Part shown: positions 1 through 31,387 of the stretch, piece by piece
Position numbering within the stretch: position 1 is the first letter of the stretch
How the letters are laid out: each line of letters starts with the position of its first letter
Assembly (NCBI RefSeq): GCF_910592395.1
Contig: NC_088322.1
Location: forward strand, 2,418,001 to 2,482,000
DNA from: Lineus longissimus
Lineage: Eukaryota; Nemertea; Pilidiophora; Heteronemertea; Lineidae
Direction: 5' to 3'
DNA: 64,000 nt
Made by a program: the position numbers and the translations under genes
The notes under the pieces: model-generated
What the model was told of the DNA's origin: nothing
What the model saw: the letters and a program-made list of their open reading frames with translations, nothing else
Database searches by the model: none

Positions 1-1254
1 GCAATACAACCGTTTTAGCTCAGCAGCAAACTCGGAGGCGGACTCTCCTGCTTTTTGGGAGCGACACGAAAATTTGGCTCCATATGATTTTGCTGTTTCA
101 ATCCGCCTAAAGCGGTGATTTAGCTCTCTAATCAAAGCCCTATAATCACCCCTGACTGATTTGTCCAGCTGGCCGTAAACAAATTCAGCCGCGGCGCCCT
201 GGAGCTTAGGGAGGAGGTGGTCCAGCTTCTCCTCAACGGTCCAGCCACATCGGCTGGCCACATCTGAAAATCGGTTATAGTATGCCTCCCAAGATTCCTT
301 GGTGGTGTCTCTGAATGGCGGTAGCTTAGGACCCCTTGACAACTGATGACGGGGCCTTGGGGCTTCATCCTCAGTGTCGCTGTCACACCAGCGATCTAAT
401 GAGTTTTTCCTAGGCCGCTCAGAGCTTGAACTGGAAAGACTAGCCTTTCTAGGCCGTCGCACAGCCTTACTGGACCTGGGGACATGGGGAGTTTGCTGTG
501 GCTCTTTATTCATACTAGCGCCATCCCCAATTGGTGCCTGAGGCGAGGACACATGGCCCTGGCTTGGGCTGGCTGAATGACTCACCAGCACGGTTGGCTG
601 TACGGGCGGCTGCGGGGTCCATGAGGCATAGCCATAGCCATTACTAGTACTCATCAAAGGGTACTGCTGCGGGCCTAACGACATTTGGGGATTACCCATC
701 CCAAACATTTGGCCATAACTCGTCCCCACCATCTGGGATTGGCCATGAGTGGCATAACTACTGGGGTGTGGGATTTGTCCTGCCGTCCAGGGTGGCATAC
801 GCTCGCCCCTGGATGTGTTCAATGCTGGCATCGGCATTGATACGGGATTCAGTAAGGCAGGCCCAGCCACGGACATCATTGTTGATCCGGCCACAGCCCC
901 AGCCATGGTTCGAGTGGTGCTCATCACCACACTTGTACCACTCGTCATCATTACTACACTCGTGGTAGTAGGAGTCGTCACCCGGGACGGCATCATAGAG
1001 GGCCCAGCTCCCTGTGCTGGGGGAGCACTAGAACTCGAGATAGGGAGATTACTGGCTCCCTGATCAGGCCTACCTGCACTACTATCTTCCGCCAACATTA
1101 TGCGTTGGTATACCTCGTCAATGTATTCGTCTGGTATCTCTGTTTCAGCCTCAGTGAAGTATTCATCAGATTCAGATTGAATCTCTCGCGGTAGCAATCG
1201 GATCGGGGTGAAATTCTTCCGTTTGGCTCTCAATCCCACTGATTTCCTGGGCAT
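1..1254 (-). CDS. Ty3/gypsy-type Gag polyprotein, 5' part (runs off window)
   Basis: An uninterrupted minus-strand frame of 418 codons runs from an ATG at 1254-1252 to the first base of the window, so the 3' end is missing. The N-terminal third is acidic, with runs of Glu and Asp around residues 25-50. The middle is low-complexity and rich in Ser, Thr, Met, Pro, Gly and Gln. A basic Ser-rich patch (RRPRKASLSSSSSERPRK) follows, then a segment with the layout of metavirid Gag capsids: LPPFRDTTKESWEAYYNRF, then CGWTVEEKLDHLLPKLQGAA, then a stretch ending ESASEFAAELKRLYC. Gag packages element RNA into cytoplasmic particles. Zinc knuckle and pol would lie to the left, outside the window. The start is supported by a primer-binding site and an LTR end just upstream. 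No stop or frameshift is seen, so this part may be recent. The fold assignment is by motif recognition only. Confidence 0.82.
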   Translation of the reverse strand, partial: MPRKSVGLRAKRKNFTPIRLLPREIQSESDEYFTEAETEIPDEYIDEVYQRIMLAEDSSAGRPDQGASNLPISSSSAPPAQGAGPSMMPSRVTTPTTTSVVMMTSGTSVVMSTTRTMAGAVAGSTMMSVAGPALLNPVSMPMPALNTSRGERMPPWTAGQIPHPSSYATHGQSQMVGTSYGQMFGMGNPQMSLGPQQYPLMSTSNGYGYASWTPQPPVQPTVLVSHSASPSQGHVSSPQAPIGDGASMNKEPQQTPHVPRSSKAVRRPRKASLSSSSSERPRKNSLDRWCDSDTEDEAPRPRHQLSRGPKLPPFRDTTKESWEAYYNRFSDVASRCGWTVEEKLDHLLPKLQGAAAEFVYGQLDKSVRGDYRALIRELNHRFRRIETAKSYGAKFSCRSQKAGESASEFAAELKRLYC

Positions 1255-2863: not shown

Positions 2864-3244
2864 TTAAGTATTAGGTTGGTTAACCAGTGAAATGTTCACT
2901 CCAAAAACGACATGGGAAGAGGAGGGGCTAACCTGCATAGTTTTATCCTTTTCCTCTGCCATGAATGAGTTGACGATATCTTCTGACAACCCTTGACTTG
3001 ATTTCACATCTCTGCTCATTTCGTCATCGGCACAGCCATATCCCTCCGTAAACGAGGATGATGTATCCGCATCATTTTCCATGATGATTGAACTGGTACC
3101 ATTTCCTATCAACTCTGTGATATGGCCACCTTCATTTTGTGGTTGGTGCGCCTCCTCTGAAAAGTTAAGACTGCTTGGTTCCATGTGATTGCCTGGATGA
3201 GTTGACGGGGTAGATGTGACAACTGGCATGACTTGATGATCATC
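2864..3244 (-). CDS. Last coding exon seen of the SET gene
   Basis: The acceptor CACTTTAACAG is followed by a phase 0 frame of 126 codons to a TAA at 2864. It is Ser/Glu/Asp-rich (SLNFSEEAHQPQNEGG, SSIIMENDADTSSSF). A possible internal donor (ATGCAG/GTTAGC at 2933) could splice onward instead, so the true C terminus is uncertain. No minus-strand AATAAA was found close downstream. Confidence 0.5.
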   Translation of the reverse strand, partial: DDHQVMPVVTSTPSTHPGNHMEPSSLNFSEEAHQPQNEGGHITELIGNGTSSIIMENDADTSSSFTEGYGCADDEMSRDVKSSQGLSEDIVNSFMAEEKDKTMQVSPSSSHVVFGVNISLVNQPNT

Positions 3245-6200
3245 CTGTTAAAGTGAAGATGGAAAAGCATGATTTGATGCTAATCCTGGTCAAAATGACA
3301 AGAGTTATGGTAATGGAACTTGGGTCACTTGCCTCCTTTTGTAACACCTTGCTTTCTTTTCCGAAGCTAGTGTTGACAGAAGTTGGGGACAGTGATCTGA
3401 ACGTACTGAGGGAGTTGTTGGACCCAAGGGCCATTGTTTGTGGTTTGCTTTATCGTACACTTATAGAAAGGTTCCTATTTTGGATACTCACCTCAAAATC
3501 AAATAGGCTATCTGGGCTAAGAGGAAGAACCAGACTCTCAGGGGTGAGGGGAAGCAGCATGGAATGCAGGAGGGCGTTATCTGGAAGAAATATTTGCAAA
3601 AGCATATTTAGTTTGTTCGCAAAAGCATAGTGGTGTTCTCAATCGTTTTTACCCCCGCCCATGACATTCACTATGAATTCCTTATGAAGATCTGTGATTA
3701 CTTTGCAGCAGTTCAGCAAAATTTCCCAAGAATACCTGTCGAAGGGCTACTGACTATTCATGCAACCTATGAAAGTCATCAGTACCTAGCAATAAAGTCA
3801 CCATAACGACTCTGGTTGGAAATGCATTAGATAAGAAGTGTTAGGCAAGACAATAACTGTACCTTTGGTATCTTCGCCTTCGGTTTCCTTGTCTCCTCTG
3901 CACATTCCATTTTGGCCAACCCCAGATTTCGTGTTTCCAGGTATTCCTGATCGTTCATCTCCTGCTATTGTTGTTCCTTGGTCTACTTCTTCATTATGAT
4001 CTACGTCCAGGTTTTGACCTCTTCCAAAACTTTCGTTTCCTGTTGCACTCATCCCATCAGCCAGCAATGAATCATCACTGATTATAACCACATCTTTCTC
4101 ATCAAGAGATGTTTCACTGAATAAAAAAACACCTTCCTCGTCAAGAGATGTTTCAATGTCATCATCTTTGATAATCATCGTGTCCGAGGCTTCGTCTTCC
4201 CCAATACCATACTCTCCAGTCTCCTCGCTTTCTCCCGCAGGGCAGACATTGCTTTGTTCCTCAACCACTTCCCCTGTCCGATGTAGCTCATCCTTCTCAT
4301 CATCAGACGTGGCATATTCGATATATTTTTCCATGTCAGCATCACTTTCACAACTGTAGTGATATTCCATGACCTCATTTGCATGAATTACATTACCACT
4401 GACTTCGTCGTTTACATCTCCATAATAATGAGTTACCTCCCTGGCATCTGCATCGCTGTCTTCAACCAACTCCTCAACCGGCTGTAACTCATCACTGCAA
4501 ATTATTCCGTCCGACTTTTTGCCTTCTTTAGCTTCAGGCCTTTTTTCATCTCTGTACTTATCAGCCTCATGTAGCCCATCTCCTTGGTTTTTGTGAACAA
4601 ACGGGGATACTTGGCTCTGTACCGTGGGAGGCATACTTTGGGTTTCTCCCAATGGAACCGTGCCTTGTGCTGAGCTGGCTCCAATATAGGTATTTTTCCT
4701 TTCGATAGCATTACTGGTCTGTTTGGGTGGTGGTCTGACCTTTTTACCTGTAATGAATTTTCATGTGTTTATGAATACCAGGGAACGACCGATACTGCAT
4801 GTAATCGCAACGATGCTGCTGAGAGATGATATTGATGAGGTGAGGTAAGAGTGATATTTCAATTCGATGGTCTATCGTGTATATGCTTTAACGCGCATGA
4901 AGACTGATATGAGAATAGTCGAAAATGTAATTGGGGTTAAATTCATTCCCTCGAATTTCAAAGCTAATATCATCAACTACATAGGTGTTCATTATTTCTC
5001 CGTTTAGAAAAAAAGAGGTTGTTTATCTTTCGGTATCACTTGTTTATGCCGAATTATGATCGAAGAATTCATTTGTCTAAAACAGTGGTTTCCATATTCA
5101 CGGCAAAGTGATTAGAATAAACAAAGAGTGAACCGCAATGTATATTTCTTAGGTTGCGCAACTTCTGTACACCCTGATGCCAGAGAATGCTGAGGAGTGT
5201 GGATCCGAGCAATCGGGACCTCATTCTATGATGACATACTTTCTCTTTTCTTAAAACTTTTGGAAATGTGTAGGAAGCAGTCCACTGTTTAGCATAGGCT
5301 GGGTTGCAGTTCTTCCGTCAATTGAATGTGAGTGTGTGATTGATTGAAAGGGCTGATTATATCATTAAGTAAGATGATTTATCAAACAAGTCAATGACAT
5401 TTAGCAAAATATTGCTCTACTCACGTTTCCTAGCTTGCACAACAGCTGGTGTGCGAAACGCCACGGGGACCTGAGTAGTTTCACTGTGACCTGTAGGCAT
5501 TGTAACAAACGGGGTTACTTGGCTCTGTGCCGTGGGAGGCATACTTTGGGATTCTTGCAATTGAGCCATGCCTTGTGCTGAGCTGGCTCCGATATGGGTC
5601 TTTTGCCTTTCGATAGCCATACTGGTCTGGTTGGGTGGTGGTCTGACCTTTTTACCTGTAATGAATTTGCATGTTTTTATGAATACAATGAAACGACTGC
5701 AACTGCATGCTATCACAACGATGTTGCTGATCGAGGTGATAATGACAGGACGAGGTGAGAATGATATGATTATTTGTTATTAATTACTTATACATGAAAG
5801 CTTACATGAAAATAGTCATCAATAAAATCGGGATTTAATTCATGCTTTCGAACTACAAAGTAAATTCAACACTCTGACGCCAGGGAATGCTGAGTAGTAA
5901 GGACTCGAACCATGGGATGCTGAGTAGTGTGGACTCGAACCATAGGATGCTAAGTAGTGTTGGAGCCGAACCATAGGATACTGAGTAAAGTTGACCCCAG
6001 GGAATGCTGAGTAGTGTAGACTCGAACCATGGGATGCTAAGTTGTGTGGACCCGAACCATAGGATACTGAGTAAAGTGGACCCCAGGGAATGCTGAGTAG
6101 TGTAGACTCGAACCATGGGATGCTAAGTAGTGTTTGACCCGAACCGTAGGATGCTTAGTAGAGTGGACCCGAGCAAAGGGATGCTGAGCAGTGCAGACCC

Positions 6201-9200
6201 GAGCAATGAAGACCTCATTCTCTAGGTACCTCTTTTGTTTTAATTAAAGCTTTAAAGAATGTGACTCTGAACAACAGGTTGTTGATCGACGACTTCATTC
6301 GTCTAAAATAGTGATTTCTATATTTGCTGCAAAGCGATAAGGATAAACATGGTCGAACCACTATTTGAATTTCTTAGGTTGCGCAAGATCTATACACTCT
6401 GATGCCAGGGGATGCTGAGTTGAGTGGACCCAAGCATTCTGGTGACCCACTTTCTCTTTTCTTCAAACTTTTGGAAATGTGCGGGAAGCAGTTAAACAAG
6501 TCAATGACGATTAGCAAAGGATTGCTTTACTCACGTTTCTTAGCTTGCACAACAGCTGGTGTGTGAGACGCCACGGGGACCTGAGTAGTTTCACTGTGAC
6601 CCGTGTGCATTGTAACAAATGGGGTAACTTGGCTCTGTGCCAGGGAACGCATGCTTTGGGGTTCTTGCAATGGAACCGTGCCTTGTGCTGAGCTGGCTTC
6701 GATATTGGTCTTTTGCCTTTCGATAGCCATACAGTGCTGGCTGAGCGGTTGTCTGACTTTTTTACCTGTAATAAATATACATCTACTTATGACAACCAGG
6801 AAACGACCGATACTGTATGTTACCACAACGAAGTGGTTGATAGAGGTGATGTTCTATTGACAAGGTAAGGTGAGAGTAATATTGTCTTTGCATCATCGTT
6901 CATGAGGACTGACAAGAAAAAGGTCATGACCGTAATCGGGGTTGAATTCATTCCCTCGCATTTTGCAGCAAATTATACCAAACAAGTAGCTCATTATTTC
7001 TCCATTTAGACAACAAGAGGTTGTTGATCAACGACTTGTCTTGTATTTGTCTAAAACATCTATACGCTCGATGATGTAATTTTACAGCCAGGGGATGCTG
7101 AGTAGAGTGGACCCGAGCAATTAAAACATCATTCACTGGTGACCCACTTTCTCTTTTTTCTTCAAACTTTTGGAAATGTGTAGGAAGCAGTCCACTGTTT
7201 TGCATAGGCTGGGTGGCAGTTCTTCCGTCAATTGGATGTGATTGTGTAATTGATTGAAAGTGCTGATTATATCATTAAGTAAGATGATTTATCAAACAAG
7301 TCAATGACATTTAGCAAAATATTGCTCTACTCACGTTTCCTAGCTTGCACAACAGCTGGTGTGTAAGACGCAACGGGGACCTGAGTAGTTTCACTGTGAC
7401 CTGTAGGCATTGTAACGAACGGGGTTACTTGGCTCTGTGCCGTGGGAGGCATACTTTGGGATTCTTGCAATTGAGCCATGCCTTGTGCTGAGCTGGCTCC
7501 GATATGGGTCTTTTGCCTTTCGATAGCCATACTGGTCTGGTTGGGTGGTGGTCTGACCTTTTTACCTGTAATGAATTTGCATGTTTTTATGAATACAATA
7601 AAACGACTGCAACTGCATGTTATCACAACGATGTTGCTGATCGAGGTGATATTGACAGGGTGAGGTGAGAATGATATGATTCTTTGTTATTAATTACTTA
7701 TACATGAATGCTTACATGAAAATAGTCATCAATAAAATCGTGATTAAATTCATGCTTTCGAACTACAAAGTAAATTCAACACTCTGACGCCAGGAAATGC
7801 TGAGTAGTAAGGACTCGAACCATGGGATGCTGAGTAGTGTGGACTCGAACCATAGGATGTTGAGTAGAGTGGACCCGAGCAAAGGGATGCTGAGCAGTCA
7901 GTGCGGACCCGAGCACTGAAGACCTCATTCTTTAGGTACCTCTTTTATTTTACTTAAAGCTTTAAAGAATGTGACTCTGTGTTTGTTCTGCTTTGAGCCG
8001 AACTGGATCTATAAATGTTTCCTTTACGTTTTATACTTAGACTGCAAGCCGGAAGGACCGACAACATGAGACTGCCATTATTCGCAAGCCGGAAGGACCG
8101 ACAACATGAGACTGCCATTAATCAACTCATCACTGAGATCACTCAAATGCGACGTGACGACACAAAAAAATCAAGACCACTGCTACTTACATTTTTTGGG
8201 CTGTATGGCTGTTGAACTCTCCATAGCCATGGTGACCTTTGAATTGCGAACCTGATCATTTGTCGTTTCAGATGGATCCTTCTTTTTCTTGCAGACTGGG
8301 GTAACGTGTCGCTGCGACTGAGCAGGGCCACTGGGGGTTTCTGGCAATGGAGCCCTGCCATGGTCTGAGCTTGATCTTCTCTGCCTCTTTGAAGCCCTAT
8401 AGTCATGCGTTGGTGGTGGCTTCACTTCACTACCTAAAATAAAATGCACATAAACATTAAGCATTAAGCATTACTTTTCATTCTCTGACCGCTGCACTTC
8501 AGTGCTGTTCCCTGAACAAGAAATATATGTTAATATGCAGTTTTGTGCATGCAGTAGGAAGCCTTTGTTACCATTTTAGGAGACCAGGTCTGAGTTACCC
8601 ATTGGTCAGAGTTGTTTTCTCATAGATGTCCTCCACTGATAGAGGGGTACTCACAGTGGTCTTACGCAGCACACCAGGGGCAAGGAGTGGCCTTCAGTAG
8701 CACACCAGCATATCTAAATTTGCAACATTTTTTTTTCAAGTCTGGAAAGACAGCTTACTTTTCTTTGGTTGCACCTCTACTGCACTTTTCGGCACCATGG
8801 GGACCAGGGTAGTCTGAGAATTATAGTCATGCGTCCTGGAAGTCTTCGGTACACGTTCCTTTTTCTTTAAGACTTGGCAATGTCCATGTGCGAGAGCAGA
8901 TGAAAATGAACTCTCTGGTACTTTAATGAGTTGTTGTTTTTACTCCAACTTGGAGGCTACTTGGTCGCTTGTCGACTTCATCAGGGCTGGCCTGTAGTCG
9001 ATTTCGGTCATCGCTTGATTTTCGGACGCCGTTTTGTCCTGGGTTGTTGTTGCTTCTATTTTCCTACCTAAAATTTAATTAGATGCATCAAGCATTAAGC
9101 ATTATGTTCTTTACTTACAAACTATTTCTCCTGGTCTAAAAAATGATAATCGGTGACAAGTGGGAATATTGACTACTGATTAGTTGATTAATGGAACGCT

Positions 9201-12200
9201 AAAAAAAAGAGCATATTAAGGAAAATCTTTCAAATTGAATATGTTAGACAACAATGCTGACTATTAGCAAAATTAAACTGCTACTTACCTTTCTGAGTCT
9301 GCACAACTGCCGATCCCTCTGATGACATGGGGACCGTAGCCTCTGCGAACTTCGATATAGTTTCCCTTTTCTTGAGAATCAAAGGAACGCGTATTTGTGC
9401 CTGGTCATACAAACTGGGCGATTCAGGCAATTGAGCCACGCCTTGGGCTGAACTGGATCTAACATCGGTCTGCTGTTCTTTTAAAGTTGCATTATTCTTG
9501 GATGGTGGTACTTTGACATTCGTTCCTAAAATAAAGTTGTAGTAATATTGTTAGCCTAAGATTGTAGGTGACTAGATCTAGGAGGAATGCATTAGGCACA
9601 TATACAACTTGATACACTGATCGAACTCGACTCCTCAGCGGTGACCTCCAATGTCTAACAGACTGGGAGCCCAGTTTAGTTCGTTTACATTATTTACCAC
9701 ACAATGTTTTCATTTATCAGCAAAAAGTCCTCAGCGGTGACCTCTAATGTCTAACAGACTGGGAGCCCAGTTTAGTTCGTTTACAATATTTACCACACAA
9801 TGTTTTCATTTATCAGCAAAAAGTCATTACTAATAGATTTTGCATTCCTGGGCTTCAGAGACGGTACGCTCACCAGCCCCCCGGTCAGGCTTGGGGTGTG
9901 GTCGTGTGTGTTCTTGGGTTAGTGGTGTGCCAGGCAAAAAAAGGCCAATCGGAAATAATTGATTGCTTCAATGATTTGAACATGGACTGGGCGACAGTAC
10001 ATCTGTCAATTGGATGTGATTGTGTAATTCATTGAAAGGACTGATGATATCAGTCGGTGAGATGACTTACAAAAACAAGTCAATGGCGATTAGCAAATGA
10101 TTGCTCTACTCACGTTTCGTTACGGGGACCTGAGTAATTTCACTTTGATCCCTGTGCATTGTAACAAACGGGGTAACTTGGCTCTGCGCTGAAGGCATTC
10201 TTTGGTTTTCTCCCAATGGAGCCGTGCCTTGTGCTGAGCTGGCTCCGATATAGGTATTTTGCCTTTCGATAGCCATACTGGTCTGGTTGGGTGGTGGTCT
10301 GATTTTCTTACCTGTAATGAATAAACATGTGCTTACATGGCTTGTGAATACCAGGAAACGACCAATACTGCATGTAATCACAACGATGTTGCTGATTAAG
10401 GTGATATTGACAAGGTGAGGCGAGAGTGATAATTCTGTGATTGTCTATGCTTTAACGTACATAAAAACTCATACGAAAACAGTCATTAACGTAATCGGGA
10501 TCGAATTCATATCTTCGATTTTTTAAGTAAATTTTAACCAACTAAGTGAAGTGCTCATTATTTCTCCGTTTAGACAACAAGAGGTTGTTGATGTAGGATT
10601 TAATTTGTCTGACACAGTAATTTCCATATGTGCTGCATAGTGATAAGGAAAAACAAGTAGTGAGCCGCTATTCATATTTCTTAGGCTGGTCAATTAACTT
10701 CTATATACTCTTATGCCAGGGGATGCTGAGTAGTGTGGACCCGAGCAATTGGGACCTCATTCTCTGGTGACCCACTTTCATTTTTTTCAAAGTGTAGGAA
10801 GCAGTTAACTGTTTCGCATGGGCTGGGTGGCAGTACATCTGTCAATTTGATGTGATTGTGTTATTGATTGAAAGGGCTGGTGATATCAGTTAGTAAGATG
10901 ATTTATCAAAACAAGTCAATGACATTTAGCACAATATTGCTCTACTCACGTTTCTTAATTTGCACAACAGCTGGTGTGTGAAGCGCCACGGGGACCTGAG
11001 TAGTTTCACTGTGACCTGTAGGCATTGTAACAAACGGGGTAACTTGGCTCTGTGCCGTGGGAGGCATACTTTGGGTTACTCCCAATGGAACCGTGCCCTG
11101 TGCTGAGCTGGCTCCGATAGCTGTCCTTTGCCTTTCGATAGCCATAATGTTCCGGTTGGTTTGTGGCCTGACCTTTTTACCTGTAATGAATTTACATGTG
11201 CCTATGAATACCAGGAAACGACCGAAACTGCATGTAGATCACAATACGATGTTGCTGTTAGAGGTGACATTAACAAGGTGAGGTAAGAATGATATTTCTG
11301 TGATTGGCTATGCTTTGGCGTACACGAAAACTCACATGAAATAAGTCATTAACGAAATCAAGGTTGAATTCATTCCTTCGAATTTCAAAGCACTCTGAAG
11401 ACAGGGTATGCAGAGTAGTGTGGACTCAATCAATTATAAGACCGCATTATCATCTGCTTTGAGCTGAACTGGATCTATGAACGTTTCCTTTACGTTAAAC
11501 ACTTAGGCTGCAAACCAGAAATATTGGATCGACACGCACAACATGATACTGCCATTAATCAACTCATACTGAGGTGAAATGTAATTTGTATATGTAAAAT
11601 GATTGTTAAATGCCACTCTGCATAAAGCATCGAGATCACTCAAATGCGACGTGAAGACACAAAATACCAACTTATTATGCTCATCCCCAGAGAGTCAGAT
11701 TGGTTATCAACACATTCAGTACTTACATATTTTTGGCTGCATGGCTGTTGTACTCTCTACAGCAATTGTGACCTTTGAAGTGCGGACCTGATCATTCGTT
11801 GTTTCTGATGGCTCCTTCTTGTTCTTGCAGACTGGGGTAACGTGTCTCTGCACCTGAGCAGGGCAATTGTGGGTTTCTGGCAATGAAGCCCCGTCATGGC
11901 CTGAGCTTGATCTTCTCTGCCTCTTCGAAGCCCTATATTCATGCGTTGGTCGTGGTTTCATTTTACTACCTAAAATGAAATGCACATAAACATTAAGCAT
12001 TACTTTCATTCTCTGACCGTTTAAACTCAGTGCTGTACCAAGAAAAAGAAATATATGATAATTTGCAGTTTCGTGTATATTGGAGGACGCCTTGTGCAAC
12101 CAATTATTAAATGAGACCAGGGCTGAGTTGCCCATTGGTCATTTTCTCATAGATGTCCTCCACTGATCGATGTCTTCCACTGATAGCGGGACACTCACAG

Positions 12201-15200
12201 TGGTCTTATGTAATACACCAGGGGCAATTAGTGGCCTTCAGTAGCACATCAGCAGATCTAAAACTTCGCAACATTTTTTTTTCAAGTCAGGAAAGTCAGC
12301 TCACCTTTCCTAGGTTGCACAACAACTGCACTTTTCGGCACTATGGGGACCAGGGTAGTTTGAGCAATGCAGTCTTGCGCCGTCGTAGTCTTCGATTCAC
12401 GTTCCTTTTTCTTTATGACTTGGCAATGTCCCTGTGTGAGAGCAGATGAACGTGAACTCTTTGGTACTTGAATGTGGTATTGTTTCTCCATTTTGGAGGC
12501 TACTTGGTCGCTTGTCGACTTCATCAGGGCTGGCCTGTAGCCGTTTTCGGTCGTCGCTTGATTCTTGGACGCCGTTTTGTCCTCGGTTGTTGTTGCTTCT
12601 ATGTTCCTACCTGAAAATAAGTTAATTAGATGCATCAAGCAATAAGCATTATGTTTTGTATTTACAAATCATTTGTTTTGGTCTAGACAGTGATAATCTG
12701 TGACGAGTGGGATATTGACTACTGGTTGGTTGATTTATGGACCGCTCAAAATAGCACAAGAAGGACCTTTTATATTGAATATGTTAGACAACTATGCTGA
12801 TTCCTCTTGTAGCCCAGATTCTGTGGTTACTTAGATGAAATATGTCTCATCTGAGTGGCTGAGTTCAGTGGCAGACCGAATTTCTTCTCAAACAACCCAA
12901 TACTTCCTTGGCTGTAGAAATGGTGAGTGGATCATTTTATTTGACATCTAATATAAAGCAACCCGTGTATATTAATGGTATCACAATGTTGTTCACCACA
13001 TTCAGTTTGACCTGATCACCATCAGAACACGAATGACTTTTGCACAAATTCCGACCCCTGATGATTCTGGTTATGTCATCGGTTGTCATAAGGGGGTCCT
13101 CGCCGAATAGGGCGTTATCTCTGCTAGGTCTATCTACAATTATATTGTTAAATGCCATTAGATCACATAGGACCGAAAGAAAACAATGATCAGCGATTTT
13201 AGTTGCTCATTCAACTACAATCTATCCTTTGCTTAAACAACAAACATTCTTACCCTCCGATTTATCATTCTTTTGTTTCATATGTTGGTCAGGGCAGTCA
13301 GATGGTGTTTGAATACCTGTACGAGATGTATCATTCTGAAAGATTAGCAAAAAAACGAACATGTCACACATTCCAGTCATTCAGTCTCTCCCTCTGTCAG
13401 TCAATTAAAAACGCTCTCAGGAGACGTTTGATACTACATTTATTTCACTCGCATTGCATGCATAGTCACGTGCTCATGGACTTACAGCACACTGAAATCC
13501 ATCATGGTGTAATATTAAATCTTTTTAATAAAAGTCCAATATTTAAGCTTTAATACAACAAAACTGCCCCCCCCCCCCCCCCTTACGTGAGACTGCAGTA
13601 TCTTTACTTTTTGGCGAAATTGAGATTTTCTTTGACATATTAAAAGTTACCCAAGTGACCGAAATGTTTCCCTGGTAGCTGAGGATACCTATATTCTGTT
13701 GTGCAGTCCTTCAGTAAGCCTTTTAACCCAAAGTCTGACCATTAAGCCATGCGGAAGGAGTTTCCTGCAATTATTGATTACTAGGCCTACGTAAGCTTAC
13801 CTTTTGAGATCGCCAAGGTAGATCATCTACTCCACAGTCATAGCGTAGTTCTTCGCCAATGTTTATATCACGTTTGGCAAAAAGACAGAGGGCTGGACTC
13901 CCGTCTGCTGCTAAAACCTTTTTCATTAGGCAGTTGTCTGCACCATTCCACGCGTCGTTTGCCAGCCTCCCTAGTGTGCCAGTGTCTTTGGTGGCATCAA
14001 CACTATAAAGAAATAAATGTGTAATAAAGTGGTAATACATAGACAGGCCACACTTAATACTGGCGACTGGGGAGGGGGGGGGTGAATTATATTGATCGGG
14101 TAAGAACATCTGTGACTGCCGAGAATGACATTTGCAAATATTCAGTATAGCCATATAGGGAGTGTAGTGAGATCGAACTTGAGATATCTTCCTAGACTAC
14201 AAGTCAGTCGATCAGGTGCTGCACATGATATTTACCATAGGGTGCTAGTGTTGTGTTTGAAATAAAACATGAAGGAGCCTTTCTTTTTCTTGTCGTAGGT
14301 TTTCTCTCGACGCCGTGCCTCATCTTCTTTGATTAAAACGCCGTGATAGACGAGCAAGAAGGAGCCTTTGAAATGCTTCCTGCAGGCGAATACGCCCCAA
14401 CCTAGAAGTAGATTATTATTGAATAGAACAATAAAAATGTAAAGGCTGGCAAATGGATAACAAGCAGTTGTCACACCGGTGGCCCAGTGGTAGCGCGTCG
14501 GTTTTGTGATCGGAAGGTCGTTGGCTCGATACCCGACCGACGAGTCGTTACTATGTTTCTCCTACTGGTTAAGTTCAAGACGTACGGCCGCTGAGGGGCT
14601 CCTAGTGAAACCCCTCATTGATTTCTCTGGATTCTGAAATAATAATAATCCAAAGCGCTGGGACGAGCTGTGAAAATAGATGAAGTTATCATTATTACCG
14701 GCATTTAACATCTTGATTATATGAAATGAATTACTGAGCTGTTTCACTAAGGCTATTAACCCACTGCACTTTTGACATTTACTTGGCTAGGCGCCACCCA
14801 TAAGGACGCAGGGTGATGTTGGCTATACCACTATAAAGTGTTTTTCTCACTATTTTTCGCTTGTTTTGACTAATTAATTTAAATCATTAGCAATGGTACA
14901 CTCATGGTCAAAAGTTTATGGACACCAGTTATTGCACATTTTCTCAGAAACGGCTGATCCTCTTTAACCCAAATTGTTACCACTGGTGAAAAAACTCCTT
15001 GGCTATCGAATGATATCATAGTTCATATCAAAGTTATTACATAATTTTGAGAGGCGTGTATTTTTTACTTTTTTGTTGAAGGATTTTTCAAAATCAAAGT
15101 AATCTGGCATCATACAGATAACAATGCTTAGACTTTCTGTGAAGAAATTTTTTGAAAATATCATTTACTTTTCATGATGTATCAAAATATCAAAGTGTTG

Positions 15201-17429
15201 AGATTCTGAAAATTTTGAGATTTTTCTGATTTTTCGATATATCCTGGTAGTACACATGTCCCCTGAATGATTGGTGAATTTTTCTTATTTTCAACTAAAG
15301 GAACATCTCAGAACTATGATTTGAAAATTTTGATACTTCCCAGTATCGACCTTTTCTCAGCAATATGAGTTGCTAGCTGGGCTAAATTGGTGCCAATCCT
15401 TAATTGGGTATGACTTCTCAATGATACAGTTGCAAAAACCCCAAAAATATCAAAATATCAGAATTTTTATTTTTTAATACATCTCAAAACTGAAATGAGA
15501 TTTTTCATTTGTTTCACAGATAGTCTTAACAATGTGTACGGTATAATGTAGGGTAAATTTGGGTTTGAAAAATCAATTCACAAAAAAGTGAAAAATAGAT
15601 GCCTCTCAAAATTATGTAATAACTTCGTTATGCAATTGGTCCGTATAACAACTATGATATAATTCGATAGCCAAGAAAATTCTCCACAAGTGGTGAAAAT
15701 TTGGGTTCAAGAGTATCAGCCATTTCGGAGAAAATGTGCAATAACTGGTGTCCATAAACTTCTGACCATGAGTGTACTTATGAAGCAGAAAGTTAAATTC
15801 GTAAGGAAATGGCTCAGACAAGGCTGGTAAGTGGATGACAGTGTAGACCGTAATTAGGAAGTCGGAATCATTCTTGGTGATTCATTCAATCTTGGAGGAA
15901 TTAAAGCCATACTATTTTACCAACCGCCGCACTAGACTCGTACATTATTCCTAGACATCCTATGTGCACCTTCAGGAATCTCCTCATGAAAGACAAAAAC
16001 CTCAATTCAGGATAACGATGGGACATTTACTTGTGAAATGCCGGTCATTAGATAGGCCGAGCTAGAGGAGGAAAGCAATATATCTGTATAGCATTGGTAT
16101 GCCTGCCTTCCCCTCCGACATACGACGTATGTGCAGACAAAATAAAACATATTGCTCATTTTGCTTCAGGGTAACTTGTGATTCGCAAGTATGACTACAT
16201 TTTCATTTGATTGAGTTGTTTGACAAAGAGAGGGCACGGAAGTTTCTGTTTTGCTTTGATCAATACATGTGAGTTAGGCATGTTATAGGTGGACCAGTAT
16301 AACATGCCAGGTTTATGTCTCCCTCTGACCAGGCGCCTGCCTACCTTAAGCTACATGTACATGATCTTAGGTGAACCAGTATAACATGCCAGGTGTATGT
16401 CTCCCTCTGACCAATGCCACACAAACAGGCGCCTGCCTTCCTTGAGCTACATGTACATGATCTTAGGTGGACCCGTATAACATGCCAGGTTTATGTCTCC
16501 CTCTGACCAAAGCCACACAAAAAGGCGCCTGCCTTCCTTGAGCTACATGTACATGATCTTAGGTGGACCAGTATAAAACGCCAGGTTTATGTCTCCCTCT
16601 GACCAATGCTACACAAACATGTCCCCCCCCCCCCCCCGCTGTCATCGCATTAAATGGCAAATGCAACGGAATAAAAATAAATTTACGTCTTGCCCAGAAA
16701 TCGATTCACCAAAATGATATGGACTAGAGGGTTTAATCTTACACATAATCAGCTAGTTTGATCACACACAATGGGAAGGGCTAGATAAGGGATAAGTATT
16801 GAATCTGAGCTAATGAAGATAAACAACAGCACAGAAATACTGGCAATTTCACAATGAAGAGGAATAACGGAGGGAAATTAGTCATTTTGCTCAAATGCCG
16901 CTATTGCGCCCAGTCATATGTCACAAGTTATAAACCATCAAGCACTTGGACAATGGTGCCCTAATAACAATGTTGGTGATAATACCCAACCCACCCCTCT
17001 TATCTGGGACAATTAAGCATTCGTTTTAATGAAACAACCCCATGTGATCGCCGGCCATGCATCTTGCAGTTTGCCCATTTGATCAAATTACCTCCCGTAA
17101 TCAGTTGAACCATCAAAGGCGCGAGGGACATGAGTGAATAATCTAGGCTAATTGATCCTATTTAAGGCCTATAAGATATTTAGCTGTCACACAGGCATTA
17201 CATTTTCACCGTTGATTCAGGCATGCACACTTTAAAAGGTGATACGTGTACTACAGTATTACAGCAAAACGTTGTTATCTGACAAATAGTGACGGAACTT
17301 ACCGATAGATTTGTCAATATAACGCCTCTCAAATCCCGGTGGATCAGTGCCTTTCACCAAGTACTCCTCATATGATGGACTATCAGAAGAAGCACTTTTG
17401 ATCCGTCTGCTAGATCTTCTCATCATTAT
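2864..17429 (-). CDS. KMT5A/SETD8-like SET-domain gene with a tail of repeated phase 1-1 exons (whole gene)
   Basis: This multi-exon minus-strand gene was reconstructed from reading frames and splice sites. Coding exons in order: 17303-17426 (ATG at 17426), 14236-14401, 13801-14002, micro-exon 13317-13335, optional 13020-13133. Repeat exons follow: 12305-12610, 11727-11969, 10950-11180, 10114-10311, 9289-9525, 8759-9067 (contains a stop), 8191-8433, 7335-7565, 6535-6765, 5425-5655, 3863-4747. The terminal exons are 3492-3580 and up to 3244. Phases agree at every junction. With the stop-bearing exon skipped, the product would be about 1370 aa. The N terminus is a SET lysine methyltransferase domain closest to the KMT5A family, known for histone H4K20 mono-methylation in the nucleus. 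The tail is Ser/Thr/Gln/Pro-rich with basic patches and matches no domain I know. The repeat exons can be skipped freely without a frame change. Activity is doubtful because key SET residues differ. Confidence 0.72.
3492..3580 (-). CDS. Penultimate exon (phase 1 to 0)
   Basis: The very good acceptor ATTTCTTCCAG is followed by 89 nt and the strong donor GAG/GTGAGT. It encodes DNALLHSMLLPLTPESLVLP then LSPDSLFDFE, a hydrophobic, Pro/Leu-rich segment unlike the rest of the tail. It converts phase 1 to phase 0, which fits the next exon. Confidence 0.6.
3863..4747 (-). CDS. Giant repeat exon: A-type head fused to a long acidic tail
   Basis: This 885-nt exon is phase 1 at both ends. Its first ~60 codons are A-type (VRPPPKQTSNAIERK, IGASSAQGTVPLGETQSM, VQSQVSPFV). 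The next ~235 codons are strongly acidic, rich in Glu, Asp, Ser and Gly, with repeated ETSLDE motifs and stretches such as SDDEKDELHRTGEVVEEQ. The acidic tail is predicted to be disordered; comparable tails are known to contact histones or other basic partners, but that is inference. The donor is AAAG/GTACAG. Confidence 0.68.
5221..5960. repeat. Intragenic segmental duplication, partner at 7130-7860
   Basis: Exon, both introns and the start of the 30-bp minisatellite are repeated at an offset near 1.91 kb with about 95% identity by eye. It carries A exon copies 5 and 3. Confidence 0.7.
5425..5655 (-). CDS. Repeat exon, A type, copy 5
   Basis: This 231-nt exon is phase 1 at both ends, the near-twin of 7335-7565. 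It encodes KKVRPPPNQTSMAIERQ, SSAQGMAQLQESQSMPP, QVTPFVTMPTGHSETTQ and PAVVQARK. The 3' splice context is shared with all other A exons. Confidence 0.72.
5882..6207. repeat. Intronic minisatellite, ~30-bp unit, ~11 copies
   Basis: The unit resembles GGATGCTGAGTAGTGTGGAC followed by CGAACCAT, with variants of 25-31 bp. It lies in the intron 3' of the exon at 6535. Single copies of the same unit occur near 5175, 6405, 7090 and 10720. Confidence 0.85.
6535..6765 (-). CDS. Repeat exon, A type, copy 4
   Basis: This 231-nt exon is phase 1 at both ends. It is more divergent than its neighbours: KKVRQPLSQHCMAIERQ, IEASSAQGTVPLQEPQSM, LAQSQVTPFVTMHTG, AVVQAKK. Splice sites TTACAG and AAAC/GTGAGT are preserved and no stop is present, suggesting that the frame is maintained. 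Confidence 0.7.
7335..7565 (-). CDS. Repeat exon, A type, copy 3
   Basis: This 231-nt exon is phase 1 at both ends. It is almost identical to 5425-5655 (main difference ASYTP versus AFRTP), and the flanking introns match over several hundred bases, so the duplication is recent. Blocks are KKVRPPPNQTSMAIERQ, HIGASSAQGMAQLQESQSM, SQVTPFVTMPTGHSETTQ and AVVQARK. Confidence 0.72.
7792..7918. repeat. Intronic minisatellite, ~30-bp unit, ~4 copies
   Basis: This is the same unit as at 5882-6207, in the duplicated intron, with fewer copies. Copy number has changed since the duplication. Confidence 0.8.
8191..8433 (-). CDS. Repeat exon, C type, copy 2
   Basis: This 243-nt exon is phase 1 at both ends, from TTTTAG to AAAT/GTAAGT. 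It encodes GSEVKPPPTHDYRASKRQRR, PLPETPSGPAQSQRHVTPVC, KKKKDPSETTNDQV and AIQPKK. Equal length and conserved splice sites relative to 11727-11969 indicate duplication of the exon with its introns. Confidence 0.7.
8759..9067 (-). CDS. Repeat exon, D type, copy 2, with in-frame stop
   Basis: This is the paralogue of 12305-12610 (309 nt, phase 1-1, TTTTAG to AAAA/GTAAGC). Both splice sites remain intact and the frame is otherwise open. A TAA at 8940-8942 interrupts it after ASKLE, where the other copy reads ASKMEK. If spliced in, translation ends here, giving a shorter protein. It could be a poison exon or a decaying copy. Confidence 0.55.
9289..9525 (-). CDS. Repeat exon, E type
   Basis: This 237-nt exon is phase 1 at both ends, from TTTAG to AAAG/GTAAGT. 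It encodes GTNVKVPPSKNNATLKEQ, then SSSAQGVAQLPESPS, ILKKRETISKFAEATVPM and GSAVVQTQK. It aligns with the A exons at SSAQG.AQLPES and at AVVQ..K but is otherwise divergent. No second copy is seen. Confidence 0.6.
9633..9824. repeat. Tandem duplication, 96-bp unit, 2 copies
   Basis: 9633-9728 and 9729-9824 differ at only two positions by eye. They lie in the intron between repeat exons E and A copy 2. Confidence 0.9.
10114..10311 (-). CDS. Repeat exon, A type, copy 2 (shortened)
   Basis: This 198-nt exon is phase 1 at both ends. It carries the A-type blocks (KKIRPPPNQTSMAIERQ, IGASSAQGTAPLGENQRM, SQVTPFVTMHRDQSEITQ). The usual PAVVQ segment before the terminal KRE is missing, an in-frame loss of 11 codons against the 231-nt copies. 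Confidence 0.65.
10950..11180 (-). CDS. Repeat exon, A type, copy 1
   Basis: This 231-nt exon is phase 1 at both ends, from ATTACAG to AAAC/GTGAGT. Key blocks are KKVRPQTNRNIMAIERQRT, IGASSAQGTVPLGVTQSM, SQVTPFVTMPTGHSETTQ and PAVVQIKK. It has the same length and splice-site sequences as the A exons at 7335, 6535 and 5425. Confidence 0.7.
11727..11969 (-). CDS. Repeat exon, C type, copy 1
   Basis: This 243-nt exon is phase 1 at both ends, from TTTTAG to ATAT/GTAAGT. It encodes GSKMKPRPTHEYRASKRQRR, a basic cluster that could act as a nuclear localisation signal. Then come PETHNCPAQVQRHVTPVC, KNKKEPSETTNDQV and AMQPK. It is the same length as the copy at 8191-8433 and about 85% identical by eye. 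Confidence 0.7.
12305..12610 (-). CDS. Repeat exon, D type, copy 1 (intact)
   Basis: This 306-nt exon is phase 1 at both ends, from TTTTCAG to AAAG/GTGAGC. It encodes about 102 residues starting GRNIEATTTEDKTASKNQ and ending KSAVVVQPRK. It has a basic Lys/Glu patch (IKKKERESK) and is Thr/Ser-rich. The C-terminal AVVQ..K signature is shared with the A and E exon types, showing common descent. No known domain is recognised. Confidence 0.65.
13020..13133 (-). CDS. Candidate optional phase 1-1 exon (DNAL type)
   Basis: These 114 nt lie between TTGTAG and GATG/GTGATC, phase 1 at both ends, encoding a segment with DNALFGEDPLMTTDDITRI. An alternative acceptor at 13118 would start it at DNAL. The start resembles the penultimate exon at 3492-3580 (DNALLHSM). 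Splice sites are weak, so this may be a decayed copy. Confidence 0.33.
13317..13335 (-). CDS. Candidate 19-nt micro-exon linking SET domain to repeats
   Basis: The acceptor has a good pyrimidine tract ending CTAATCTTTCAG. It is followed by 19 nt and a GTATTC donor. The length of 3n+1 converts the phase 0 end of the SET exon into the phase 1 start needed by all repeat exons. It would encode NDTSRT plus one base. The phase logic is the main support; the donor is only moderate. Confidence 0.5.
13801..14002 (-). CDS. SET gene exon: C-terminal half of the SET domain
   Basis: This 202-nt exon runs from the acceptor TTTATAG to the strong donor AAAAG/GTAAGC, ending in phase 0. It encodes VDATKDTGTLGRLAND, then CLMKKVLAADGSPALCLFAK, RDINIGEELRYDCG and VDDLPWR, the core of KMT5A-like SET domains. 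Two expected residues differ: the His of the NHS or ND.H motif is Trp (NDAWNGADN), and the second Tyr of ELxYDYG is Cys (YDCG). Both positions normally shape the AdoMet/lysine pocket, so catalysis may be weak or absent. Confidence 0.85.
14236..14401 (-). CDS. SET gene exon: N-terminal half of the SET domain
   Basis: This 166-nt exon is phase 1 at its start and phase 2 at its end. It begins after CTTCTAG and ends at TATG with a GTAAAT donor. It encodes GWGVFACRKHFKGSFLLVYH, the SET-N AdoMet-binding glycine motif. Then come GVLIKEDEARRREKTY and FMFYFKHNTSTL. The split Cys codon gives CVDAT with the next exon. Order and spacing match KMT5A, where YHGDLIE, YMYYF and YCVDAT occupy the same positions. 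Confidence 0.85.
14475..14700 (+). mobile_element. tRNA-derived SINE-like element (His-type head)
   Basis: It has an A-box-like tggcccagtggtagcgcg and a B-box-like ggctcgatacc about 45 bp apart, with GTG in the anticodon position (ttttgtgatc). A non-tRNA body and an aataataataat tail follow. It lies in the intron between SET gene exons 17303 and 14401. Confidence 0.55.
14899..15774. mobile_element. Tc1/mariner-type MITE, 876 bp, TA duplication
   Basis: Ends begin CACTCATGGTCAAAAGTTTA and are inverted over about 130 bp, flanked by TA on each side (14897-14898, 15775-15776). The interior is AT-rich with many 'atcaaaatatc' words and no transposase. It lies in an intron of the SET gene. A truncated second copy is at 61921-62588. 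Confidence 0.88.
16288..16619. repeat. Tandem repeat, ~96-bp unit, ~3.6 copies
   Basis: Units begin ggtggaccagtataacatgc and end with acatgtacatgatctta. The first unit lacks about 14 bp. It lies in the first coding intron of the SET gene. Confidence 0.88.
17303..17429 (-). CDS. SET gene exon: start codon and pre-SET segment
   Basis: The acceptor GTTGCAG is followed by ATAATGATG, with tandem ATGs at 17426 and 17423. The exon ends at a GTAAGT donor in phase 1. It encodes MMRRSSRRIKS, a basic N terminus like the KMT5A pre-SET region, then EEYLVKGTDPPGFERRY, a motif typical of the KMT5A-like proteins found in invertebrates and fish. It joins in phase to the GWGVFA exon at 14401. With only about 41 residues ahead of the SET domain, the protein lacks the long N-terminal region of vertebrate KMT5A. 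Confidence 0.7.
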
Positions 17430-26631: not shown

Positions 26632-26686
26632 GGCTTGTGGTATTCGACTCGATGACTCGACGACGCGATGACTCGATGACGCGATC
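26632..26686 (+). repeat. 55-bp inverted repeat, left copy
   Basis: It begins GGCTTGTGGTATTCGACTCG and continues as GACTCGATGACGCGAT-type subrepeats. Its inverted partner at 33135-33189 has the same length with one mismatch. Together they bracket the MULE gene. Confidence 0.75.
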
Positions 26687-27507
26687 AAGTTCGATTTTTT
26701 TTAAAGAATATCACTGCCTGGACTGTAATTTATACATAGAATCATAAGTGGAGGAAAATGAAAAAGAACCGATTATTACCAACCCCTTTCCAGCTGTTTT
26801 CACCGTATCTAATCCGACCATTTTTCGTTTCCCACAAGTTTGCATTTTTGATAAAACCATGCGCCATGTTGCTATGCAAGCCACTGGTATCTTACCGTGA
26901 ATACAGCTAAATACACCTAAATATAGCTGGTTCAGATCAACCTCCTACCCAGGTTCTTTACAAGCAGAAATTCCAATGTTAAAATGACACGCGAGTTCCT
27001 GGAGACAAGGTTTGCTCTGGATATCCGTTCAGCACGGTAGAAGTGGAAATGTCCAAACCGGTATCACCAAATGAGAAAACACAACATGTTCGACATGTGC
27101 GAGTGACATCAAATTTTTATTCCTCGTTAACAAACAAAATATTGAAGGTAAGGTTGAAGAAAAATTAGCTGGGTCTAGATGTATTGAACGGGCACATCTC
27201 CTGGAAAATGTAGACTAGGTATTGATGATATAGGCTAGGCCTAGATGCAACATGTCAAATCAACAAACTATCATTCCTTGCTCACTGACGAGTATGACTA
27301 TGACAACTTACTCTCAGGTTTCTAGTGAGAAATTTATTTAAAACACTTTGGACGTGGTTTTGTTGCTACGGGTAGGCCTAGGCCTAGGCCGACAGGAGTT
27401 CTTCAAATGTACATCGAATGCCGTACCTCTAAATAGTCAGTTCTTAAACGTTTATATTGAAATTGACTGAATGAAAAGATTTTTATGGGCTTCTTTTATG
27501 TTTTCAG

Positions 27508-30500
27508 ATGATGGATGATTCACTGACAGTGACAATGCTTTGCCCTAACTGCAGTCGCATGATTCCTACAGAAGGGTACTTTTGTTGTTACTGTGGTTTT
27601 GAAAAGGTATGCACGCTTCAAAAAGAGGTTTGTTAAAGGCCAAGTTGGGCATAAGAAATGTTGGTTTTTCATGCAAAAAAGGCTTCCAGCAGGACCGCAA
27701 CAGGATCAATAAAAAATTGTTGAACTATACAGTAAACAACTCACTAGAACCATGAGAACTTAGGCCTGATTGAAATTCGCAAGCCATATCCAAAACAGCC
27801 TAAGTAACACTTTGCGAATATCATCAACATCAGTGTGATACTACAGGTGGCGGCGCATGGTGTCAAGTAAGCACATTATCCTCCTGGCCAGGTAAATCTC
27901 ATGCCCTACTTGTCCCTATGCCAGCTAATTCTTTCTAAAATCCTAGTCACGCATTTTTAAACTAATGTTTTCCGATTTCATTTTCTTCAGCCAATTTCCA
28001 ACAGCCCCGAGTTGAAACGCAGAAAGATACAGCATGTACTCATTTCCAGCAGTGACGATGAAAAAGACGGGGGTAAAGATTATCCTGACATCGAATGTTT
28101 TGACATTGATCTTGCTGATAAGGTGAGGAAAAATCAACCTCATTATTCCAAAGAAACAGCGCCTGGTCCTGATCCTCCTCTGACTCCAATTAATGAAATA
28201 CCTCAGTGCAGTGGCATCCAAATCATATAAACAATAGCCGTGGGTAAACACAATCTGTCTTTATTATTTATTCGCCTCCTGTGGGCATGAACCACGTGCA
28301 ACTGTAAATACAAATACAACCCTATAAGTAAAGTACCAACAATAATAAAGTTGGCTCAATGGTCCATCCAGCATCCAGCTGCAGCTAACCAGTCAGGTAC
28401 TGCCATCTATCAACACCCACTAGGAACTACAGCGCCACCATGATTTTACAATACTCCACAGCCCTGTAAGGACCGCTATACATGTACTAAGTTATGGTTT
28501 AACTATGATTTTGAACTGCAGAACCTTTATTGTCATTCTTTCAATCTACTAATTTTTTTTTAAATTTCATTAACTGCAGCCAATTTCCAACAGCCCTGAG
28601 ATTGAACGACGAAGAATACGCCGTGTGATAACTGATAGTAGGGATGATGATGAAGAAGATGATCCTGACATCGTATGTCTTGACAATGATCTTGATAAGG
28701 TGGGGAAAATCAACTCCAACATTCCACAGGAAAACGACATTGCCTATATCAGCCCAGCTGTTGCAATGCCAGAAAATGTTGTCAAGATGTCATTTAAAGG
28801 ACAGTGGCCCATATATAGCCGAAAGGTGACAGGCTACAGTTACAAGGAAGCTGTCGGTATCTTAACTAACAATGACAATGACATTTTTTTACTTTCATCC
28901 ATTCCATTGCGATGCAGAGAAAATGCCACATTTTTGATCAACATGAACCAAGTGGAGCCCCGTGATTTTGTTGCAGATGAAAACGGAATATGGGGGAAGC
29001 CATCAGGGGACAAGACATATTTAAGTAAGAAAGGAGATAGTCTTGTGAAAGTAGGTAAAGGCGAGAAGCATAGTTATGTGCTTTCTCGATACTATTACCG
29101 CCACAAAGGTACCCCTGAGTTTCACAAAGCAACCTATACGTTGTATGACAGCCAGAAGAATGCATTAAGGTGTATACTGCAGTACTATTTTAAAGATGGT
29201 ATTGTAAGGGAGGTCGTTCTCCCAGCTCATGGCAACAGTAAATCAAGGAAGCCATTACTGCATACCAAACCAAGTGTGATCAGGCAAATGAAAACATCGG
29301 TTAAAGATCTGCCACCGAAACAAGTGATTGCTAACATATTCGAATCGGCCGGTGGTGCACTGGGAATACAGTCTCAGGGATCTGTTGTGCGCGATCGGCA
29401 ACAGATCTACAACGTGAACAAGAGTGTTCCACTGCATTTCAAGTCTCAAAGGGGTGGGACAAATAAGAAAACAGATTTTACTGAAATCTTGAAACTCAGC
29501 ATGGAGGGTAAATTTGTTCGTAGTTTTGATTGTGCGCAAAACAATTCTCATGCTTTCCTCGCTACTGATCAGCAGGTGAAGGACCTCAAGTCATTCTGCT
29601 GTTCAACAAAGTGCAGCACTGTTTTAGGTATTGACCCAACATTTAACTTGGGCCAGTTTTATGTAACCTTCACTACCTTTCGCCATCCTTGGTTCGTTGA
29701 TGCCAAGACTGGTAACAATGTGCTAGTACCAGGTTCAGCAATGATCCATGTGTCAAGAGCGACAGAAGATTATGAATACATGGCGGTAAAAATCCGTGAC
29801 CACTGTCATCTTGGGAACATGAAAGTTAGAGCTTGGGGCACTGATGGGGAAAGTGCCTTAATTGATGGATTCAAGAACTGCTCCAGTTTTCTTGCCCCTA
29901 GCACCCATTTAAGATGCTTCTTGCACATGATTGATAATTTGAAGCGAAAGATGACAACTCTGAATTTTTCAGAAGGCCTGAAATCTCGGTTCATAACTGT
30001 ACTTTTTGGCAAAGAGTGGCAAGATGACACAGGTCGGCATAGACGACCAGGTTTGGTTGACGCAAACTGTCCTGAGGCTTTTGATAATATCTTCGATGAC
30101 CTGAGGGATAAGATGAACAAGGAGGAGACTAAAGAGACAACGAAGGCATCTCAATTCTATGATTGGTTCTTGAAAAACCATGCTACTGCAATGCGAAACT
30201 GCATGATAGCAGGGGTTCGAAAAGCTGCTGGTCTTGGTTCCCCACCACAAAGATTTACCACAAATGATAATGAATCGTGGAATTCCCTTTTCAAGAGGTC
30301 TATCAATTGGGAGAAGCAAACTTGGGATGGAATTGCAAATGCCATACAGGCAGAGGTAAACCGTGTGTATAGTGATCTCCAGAAAGCTGTCTTTGGAATG
30401 GGTCCCTATCAGTTTGTCCCCGAGTGTTCAAATTTGTTAGTTTCCACAGAAACCTGGATTGACATGACCAAGGCCCAACGAAAAGCTCATTTAGCGACAG

Positions 30501-31387
30501 TCTTCAAAGAGTGTGACCCAAACTCATTCGCCATTTTCTCCACTGATGGCGATGATTGTATTGCACAAGAACTTTCCATCTCATTTCTCGACAGCGGGTT
30601 GAAGTCGGTCAACACCCAATTTCTGAGTTCTGTATGGAGGGATGCCAGTCTATATCTTGGGGAAAATTGTCGGTTGGTACAGGTGCCGCAGAATCCACAT
30701 AAAACGGCAGTGCTTGAAAAGGAGTGTCACATAGTTGAGCAACGGGGCAATTCTTTTATGTGCGAGAAATGCACGTATTTTGCTGAGTATGGTCTATGTG
30801 GACATACTTTGGCAGTCGCAGAGCATGTAGGGTCCCTTGCACCTTTTCTTACTTACATAAATGAACAAAGAGACAAGGAATCATGGAGTGATGTCTTAAA
30901 TAGTCAGGTCAGCAAGAGTGCTGGGGAAAAGGGAGGAAAGAAACGGAAAGGCCCCAACAATACCCGAAGTAAACCAGTCCTGCATGCAGATGAGGCAAAT
31001 CTGCAAGCCGATTTGCTAACAGTTGGTGCTGAACTTTTATTTAGTCACCCTTACCACAACAACAACCAGTTCTTTCTGAAGAAAACACAGGATTGCCCAT
31101 CTGCCAAGAAATGTGCGTCCTGTGGTAATGATTTCCCCCAGGCTCTGCGAATCCCCCCGTATGATATTTTGTTGGAGCACTTTGAGCGTTACGAGTACTT
31201 AGACAAAAGTACAGGTTCGTGGGTGTACACAAGGAAGAAAGAACGGGCTGTATTTTACCATGCCTCAATGGCATGTGTGATGATTCGCCATCCATTCTTC
31301 AGTCGTACTTTGTATACTGAACTGCCACAGCTTTCAGCTGCACACAGGTGGTATTTGAGAGCCAATTTATTCGGTGATTCCGACTAG
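27508..31387 (+). CDS. MULE-type transposase with SWIM finger and N-terminal zinc ribbon (three coding exons)
   Basis: Coding exons are 27508-27606, 27991-28122 and 28580-31387, all phase 0, giving about 1012 aa. Exon 1 encodes a zinc ribbon (CPNCSRMIPTEGYFCCYCGF). Exons 2 and 3 both begin PISNSPE and carry an acidic segment. Exon 3 holds a MULE-like catalytic core: DPTFNLG (first Asp, near residue 429), WGTDGESAL (second Asp, near 498), HLRCFLHMIDNLKRKM, and NDNESWNS (candidate Glu, near 642). A SWIM-like finger follows (CEKC..YGLCGH, near 805-820) and a C-terminal Cys cluster (CPSAKKCASCG). MULE transposases cut and join DNA at inverted ends. The frame is fully open with no stop. The acceptor directly before the ATG implies a 5' UTR exon, likely ending at 27147 (GAAG/GTAAGG). 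An AATAAA at 32279 could end the transcript. It may be an autonomous element or a domesticated gene. Confidence 0.8.
28580..28712 (+). repeat. Exon-scale duplication within the MULE gene (partner 27991-28140)
   Basis: The start of exon 3 and the whole of exon 2 are homologous, from PISNSPE through the acidic DPDI/YPDI segment to DKV. Similarity continues past the exon 2 donor: GATAAG/GTGAGG in exon 2 corresponds to GATAAGGTGGGG, which is read as coding in exon 3. Confidence 0.75.

Follow-up and report, generated by a model that had tools for sequence, protein, structure and literature searches.

The window analysed here is a stretch of 64,000 nucleotides from the nemertean Lineus longissimus (NCBI RefSeq assembly GCF_910592395.1, contig NC_088322.1, positions 2,418,001 to 2,482,000 of the forward strand), which carries on its minus strand, from position 17429 to position 2864, a gene that couples a SET domain closest to that of KMT5A to a long array of repeated exons. 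The interpretation we favor, and to which we give moderate confidence, is that this locus represents the 5' half of a gene in which the SET domain is fused to a tyrosine recombinase (YR) half, that the linker between the two has been lengthened by exon duplication, and that the particular copy lying in the window is probably damaged or decaying.

The putative recombinase half and the SET domain

The continuation of the gene is suggested by its relatives. One L. longissimus protein model, P0005, leaves the window at position 2933 and proceeds into a Cys/His-rich (zinc-finger) region and then a YR-like domain; in fold comparisons the downstream domain of the relatives resembles the tyrosine recombinases XerD, XerH and Cre, a YR-like catalytic fold. 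SET and YR parts occur within one protein in a second L. longissimus gene, where the SET domain is partial, and in two Acropora genes, where it is complete, and further YR-family genes (P0008 and P0009) lie on other L. longissimus chromosomes. Across 13 YR-family proteins the first Arg is kept in 13/13, the second in 12/13, the Tyr in 13/13 and the His of LGH in 13/13, and the His of HxxR is replaced by Thr in all 13, these residues being assigned by motif to what we take to be the R-H-R-Y catalytic set. Weighing against our interpretation, the fold scores for the YR-like domain are only moderate. Pfam and PDB searches with P0005 by sequence alone gave nothing useful for a YR assignment, and none of the 13 proteins matched a YR or DUF3504 family of Pfam at E 0.1.

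A previous sequence-only reading of this DNA had placed the end of the gene at 2864, which is merely where the open frame meets a stop when it is read through the donor of the last rebuilt exon, F2, the same donor from which P0005 departs; the gene probably ends beyond this point and continues into a YR half. Neither AATAAA nor ATTAAA occurs within 870 nt past the 2864 stop, the remainder of P0005 was searched for inside the 64-kb window and not found, and the YR exons of the locus itself would lie off the window. The earlier reading overlooked this continuation, with the array as its putative linker, as well as the tyrosine that the SET domain has lost.

Its claim that a KMT5A-like SET domain precedes the repeat exons was borne out, the best PDB match being KMT5A/SETD8 at E 1.5e-20, with the top 14 rows all KMT5A/SETD8/SET8 and EZH2 next at E 7.6e-13; in Pfam, the second half of the domain alone matches SET at E 2.8e-05 and the first half alone at E 0.0011, short of the cut-off. 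The likeness to KMT5A (SET8, SETD8, PR-Set7) consists in this top rank among solved structures, whereas two of its hallmarks are missing from the window copy. In the GRLxNHS motif, ND replaces NH in the window and in all six motif-bearing relatives (P0004, P0006, P0007, P0008, P0014 and P0015), NH being present in P0003, which is named as an H4K20 methyltransferase. The tyrosine of YDYG, presumably an active-site residue, is Cys in the window (YDCG), and DYG is kept in P0004 and seven further relatives. The family differs from KMT5A also in its long repeat tail and, in the relatives, in its YR half. A similar SET domain, with ND and an LPWR ending and 42-44% identity, is found in P0007 of Haliotis asinina (SET + zf-CXXC), but there it is followed by a CXXC finger, and P0007 matches no module exon at E 1e-4 and is absent from the YR matches.

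Two other ideas on the origin of these parts were discarded. When viral contigs were scanned twice for the SET or YR parts, 24 and 25 pattern matches came up, and not one of them was confirmed. The expansion of KMT5A in annelids, with three paralogues in Capitella, was dropped as a precedent, the passages of PMC12153100 that bear on it mentioning no fusion.

Exon structure and the module array

We rebuilt 17 phase-compatible exons with consensus-like splice sites on the minus strand (Table 1, in exon order; the alternative first exon is additional), and chance exon-like frames were ruled out by splice sites, phase match and indel pattern. With C2 omitted the open frame comprises 1360 residues (1359 counted from the first ATG); with C2 included it runs into an in-frame TAA within C2 itself (9067-8759).

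Table 1. Exons of the SET gene and the open frame that follows it
Feature	Positions	Strand	Remarks
E1, first coding exon (MMRRSSRR...), phase 1 end	17303..17429	-	62.5% identity in paralogue P0006
Alternative first coding exon (MLNA)	14699..14711	-	fits start of RefSeq P0004
SETa, SET domain first half	14236..14401	-	100% identity to P0004
SETb, SET domain second half	13801..14002	-	ND for NH; YDCG vs YDYG of P0004
E4, linker exon, phase 0 to 1	13254..13335	-	100% identity to P0004
C1, module exon, 306 nt, phase 1-1	12305..12610	-	
B1, module exon, 243 nt, phase 1-1	11727..11969	-	
A1, module exon, 231 nt, phase 1-1	10950..11180	-	
A2, module exon, 198 nt, phase 1-1	10114..10311	-	in-frame shortened vs P0002 and P0004
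D, module exon, 237 nt, phase 1-1	9289..9525	-	
C2, module exon, 309 nt, phase 1-1	8759..9067	-	in-frame stop here; stop-free in P0002 and P0004
B2, module exon, 243 nt, phase 1-1	8191..8433	-	
A3, module exon, 231 nt, phase 1-1	7335..7565	-	
A4, module exon, 231 nt, phase 1-1	6535..6765	-	
A5, module exon, 231 nt, phase 1-1	5425..5655	-	protein 100% identical in P0001
A6L, module exon, 885 nt, phase 1-1	3863..4747	-	truncated A module (+4), then strongly acidic stretch (-50)
F1, 89 nt, phase 1 to 0	3492..3580	-	100% identity to P0005
F2, acidic exon, phase 0-0	2933..3244	-	donor at 2933 = P0005 departure point
Retrotransposon gag-like open frame (judged by inspection; no database match)	4..1254	-	between F2 and the putative downstream exons, runs off window

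That the SET exons and the repeat exons belong to separate neighboring genes is very improbable. RefSeq does split near-identical sequence into four proteins (P0001, P0002, P0004 and P0005), but the P0004 gene model splices the SET domain to seven modules, joining SETa, SETb, E4, C1, B1, A1, A2, D, C2 and B2 in the order of the window at 97-100% identity, which indicates that SET and repeats form one gene, as originally proposed, and that no module is skipped in that model; repeats also follow the SET domain in the gene models P0006, P0014 and P0015.

All 11 module exons are, as had been reported for about ten, divisible by three and in phase 1 at both ends, so that each can be removed without a frameshift and every gain or loss of a module is frame-neutral. 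The sequence-only reading had gone further and proposed that the modules could be spliced in many combinations, yielding a large family of methyltransferase-like proteins with varied tails. Phase symmetry permits such skipping without proving it, and exon duplication alone predicts the same symmetry, which passes to the copies, so that the 11 exons are not 11 independent facts. The stop in C2, which is harmless only when C2 is skipped, would speak for combinatorial splicing, as would P0001, which contains part of a C module and then passes from B2 to A5 and A6L without A3 or A4; however, this junction may reflect either exon skipping or a shorter array, the C module of P0001 differing from both window copies (74% identity to C2). 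P0002, which reads A1-A2-D-C2, and P0004 both keep all their modules in genomic order. Together with the substitution rates described below, these models leave the isoform family as a possibility that we hold to be improbable.

The array has grown by duplication. Duplicated module segments have intron sequence in common and not exons alone, which indicates tandem duplication of genomic segments, and DNA identity among copies is 84-98% over nine pairs (97.8% for A3 against A5, 84-90% for the remaining eight). At the protein level homology links the modules of types A, B and D (A3/B2 37.7 bits, A3/D 45.4, B2/D 40.4), their scores being equalled in none of 100 shuffles for each of the three pairs, but the C module is only weakly or marginally related, 1, 3 and 1 of 100 shuffles reaching the score for its three pairs. 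The landmarks once ascribed to every module are shared by some of them, SSAQG being confined to A and D and the others missing from some modules. A 30-nt minisatellite lies in the introns beside A modules (5880-6193 and 7797-7898) and was co-duplicated with them.

Selection on the modules acts differently on frame and on amino acids. By Nei-Gojobori counts, the 15 A-module pairs pooled give pS 0.173 and pN 0.136, a ratio of about 0.8 (0.43-1.59 for single pairs), the ratio being 0.62 for B1/B2 and 1.15 for C1/C2. The amino acids are thus weakly constrained and drift nearly neutrally, which speaks against modules with distinct functions under strong selection, and also against combinatorial splicing. 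The frame, by contrast, is under constraint: across five exon pairs each of the three indels is a multiple of three, compared with 12 frame-breaking indels out of 19 in the 150-nt flanks (identity 87.2% in exons, 77.5% in flanks), so that 10.3 frame-breaking indels were expected in the exons and none was seen, with P ~3e-5, a value too small by an unknown factor because the pairs have members in common. One of the three in-frame indels introduces the C2 stop. Simulated stop counts, scaled to a lower bound of 77 A-module changes, give about five expected and one seen; these counts being rough, the case for frame constraint rests on the indel test.

The module exons from C1 to A5 are basic in 10/10 cases (+3 to +8) and are followed, after the module part of A6L, by an acidic block formed by the rest of that exon and by F2 (-16). 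Across 3863-12610, module number would therefore shift the balance between basic modules and acidic block and so the charge of the linker. The disorder predicted earlier for the tail is upheld by an AlphaFold2 model of P0004, built from nine aligned sequences, in which pLDDT is near 30 past the SET domain and there is no notable helix or strand along the array; a PDB profile search with the A1 module gave nothing useful. F1 (3492-3580) carries an internally doubled motif (LPLTPESLV/LPLSPDSLF), and P0008 a doubled LPISPTIFMDQR stretch; a protein-binding motif is possible in both.

A repeated linker at this place is not confined to the worm array. In Acropora the stretch between SET and YR consists of a tandem 58-residue unit, in five copies in P0014 and seven in P0015, whose different LOC numbers identify them as paralogues, so that the two copy numbers are no proof of splicing. 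Six KKVKP-type starts lie behind the SET domain of P0006. The coral unit gives no match at E 10 to 9/11 worm module exons, and the matches to D (E 0.77) and to the acidic part of A6L (E 0.029) are taken as chance, so that a repeated linker behind such a SET domain recurs with different sequence. Pfam hits to Beta-Casp and Myosin_N over the coral repeat were judged spurious.

These elements could be assembled into a single mechanism. The gene would encode a large protein, presumably nuclear, in which a KMT5A-like SET domain is fused to a Cys/His-rich and YR DNA-handling half, possibly with a weak Myb/SANT-like patch at the far end; the array would act as a basic, disordered linker, lengthened and shortened by tandem exon duplication, that tethers the SET domain to the DNA-targeting recombinase half. 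By analogy with the transposase half of SETMAR, the YR half would bind particular DNA and bring the SET domain to that chromatin, and module number would tune the reach and charge of the linker rather than confer distinct functions.

Copies of the gene and the state of the window copy

Protein searches found that the L. longissimus RefSeq proteins P0001, P0002, P0004 and P0005 match the window almost exactly. P0004, 754 aa long, lies on a 20.96-Mb contig and the other three on a 23.94-Mb contig, which we take, by their lengths in a table of PMC8593623, to be chromosomes 8 and 5, respectively; P0006, a more distant L. longissimus relative, lies on a scaffold of 221,868 bases. The window protein equals none of the four, P0001 moreover departing from its frame within A6L, and the window may carry a different haplotype or an additional copy.

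Compared with P0004, the window copy has the active-site Tyr changed to Cys, the in-frame deletion in A2 and the stop in C2, none of which P0004 shares, and it probably represents a duplicate or allele that is damaged or in decay. The stricter view that it is a dead duplicate, a decaying pseudogene from which little can be learned of present function, draws on these same three lesions and we regard it as rather unlikely: the remaining 14 coding exons are open, the loss in A2 keeps the frame and this could be one allele of a gene that works. Even so, it would be compatible with our favored reading of the gene family.

The copies also raise the question of whether the gene in its entirety forms the coding region of a large, still mobile YR element that acquired a SET domain, near-identical copies being recent insertions. 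A gene so rich in introns and longer than 14 kb would presumably be unusual for a Crypton, the His of HxxR is Thr throughout, and segmental duplication or an assembly duplicate accounts for the copies equally well; these considerations render the idea unlikely, although P0002 and P0004, on different contigs, share 100% identity along 296 residues in modules that are weakly constrained, the window adds a further, slightly different version, P0008 and P0009 lie on other chromosomes, and Tyr and both Arg are kept (12-13/13), unlike in the domesticated DUF3504 genes (PMC3212892). A wider formulation, to which we give slightly less credence still, is that large YR elements of marine animals, mobile now or recently, encode a KMT5A-like methyltransferase in one intron-rich gene whose linker exons multiply in tandem. 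If this were true, copies would move from one chromosome to another and vary in how many modules they contain, and the SET domain would place its mark on the chromatin of the sites at which the element itself recombines.

Several other elements were observed in the window. The intron 5' of SETa (14500-14640) looks by eye like a tRNA-derived SINE; an ARAGORN tRNA scan and an Rfam scan of the whole 64-kb window each gave 0 matches. A 6.5-kb element (26632-33189), which has at its two ends inverted repeats of 55 nt that are 98% complementary and made of 8/16-nt tandem units, contains a 937-residue open frame (28574-31387) without a Pfam match at E 0.001 and looks like a DNA transposon. A 73-nt tandem satellite occupies about 14 kb (34049-48468, roughly 200 copies), and on the minus strand at 55769-61107 there are BEL/Pao retrotransposon open frames (Peptidase_A17, RVT_1, Integrase_H2C2 and DUF1759).

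Known systems and significance

Genes such as those for elastin and for titin, with its PEVK region, also encode disordered repeats in series of symmetric exons, which may be skipped with the frame intact, but here the array would join a chromatin-enzyme domain to a recombinase. The nearest known idea is SETMAR (Metnase) of anthropoid primates, which likewise combines in one protein a methyltransferase domain of the SET kind with a recombinase half of transposon type, and whose transposase DNA-binding domain is described as targeting the methylase to remnants of transposon ends (PMC6326780). The present family departs from it in that its SET domain is closest to KMT5A, the recombinase fold of its relatives is YR and not mariner, it occurs in a nemertean and in corals, and its linker is an exon array. 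No SET-YR or KMT5A-YR gene appeared among the listed titles and abstract openings of the literature searched, most subscription journals lying outside it.

Among YR-only animal elements the nearest are the Cryptons, from which YR proteins have been repeatedly domesticated as DUF3504 genes (ZMYM2/3/4, QRICH1, KCTD1, KIAA1958 and WOC); these are reported in PMC3212892 to have lost the catalytic Tyr and the second Arg, whereas the 13 proteins studied here keep the two in 13/13 and 12/13 cases, have Thr in place of the HxxR His and include SET fusions. ALOG, another YR-derived DNA-binding family, is recorded from marine animals in PMC3537659. The YR family also occurs with other N-terminal parts, namely an LEDGF-like one in Diadema and an Ulp1 protease in Montipora (P0011 and P0016), as if it swapped partners.

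A fusion of SET domain and recombinase is best known from a single primate case, SETMAR, and the gene described here would represent another SET lineage joined to another recombinase class. This would suggest that histone methylation has repeatedly been paired with transposon-type DNA binding, and that this solution predates the primate case or extends more widely. In addition, the worm array and the differing coral repeat at the same place would provide a natural series on the length of the linker that separates a chromatin enzyme from its DNA-targeting half.
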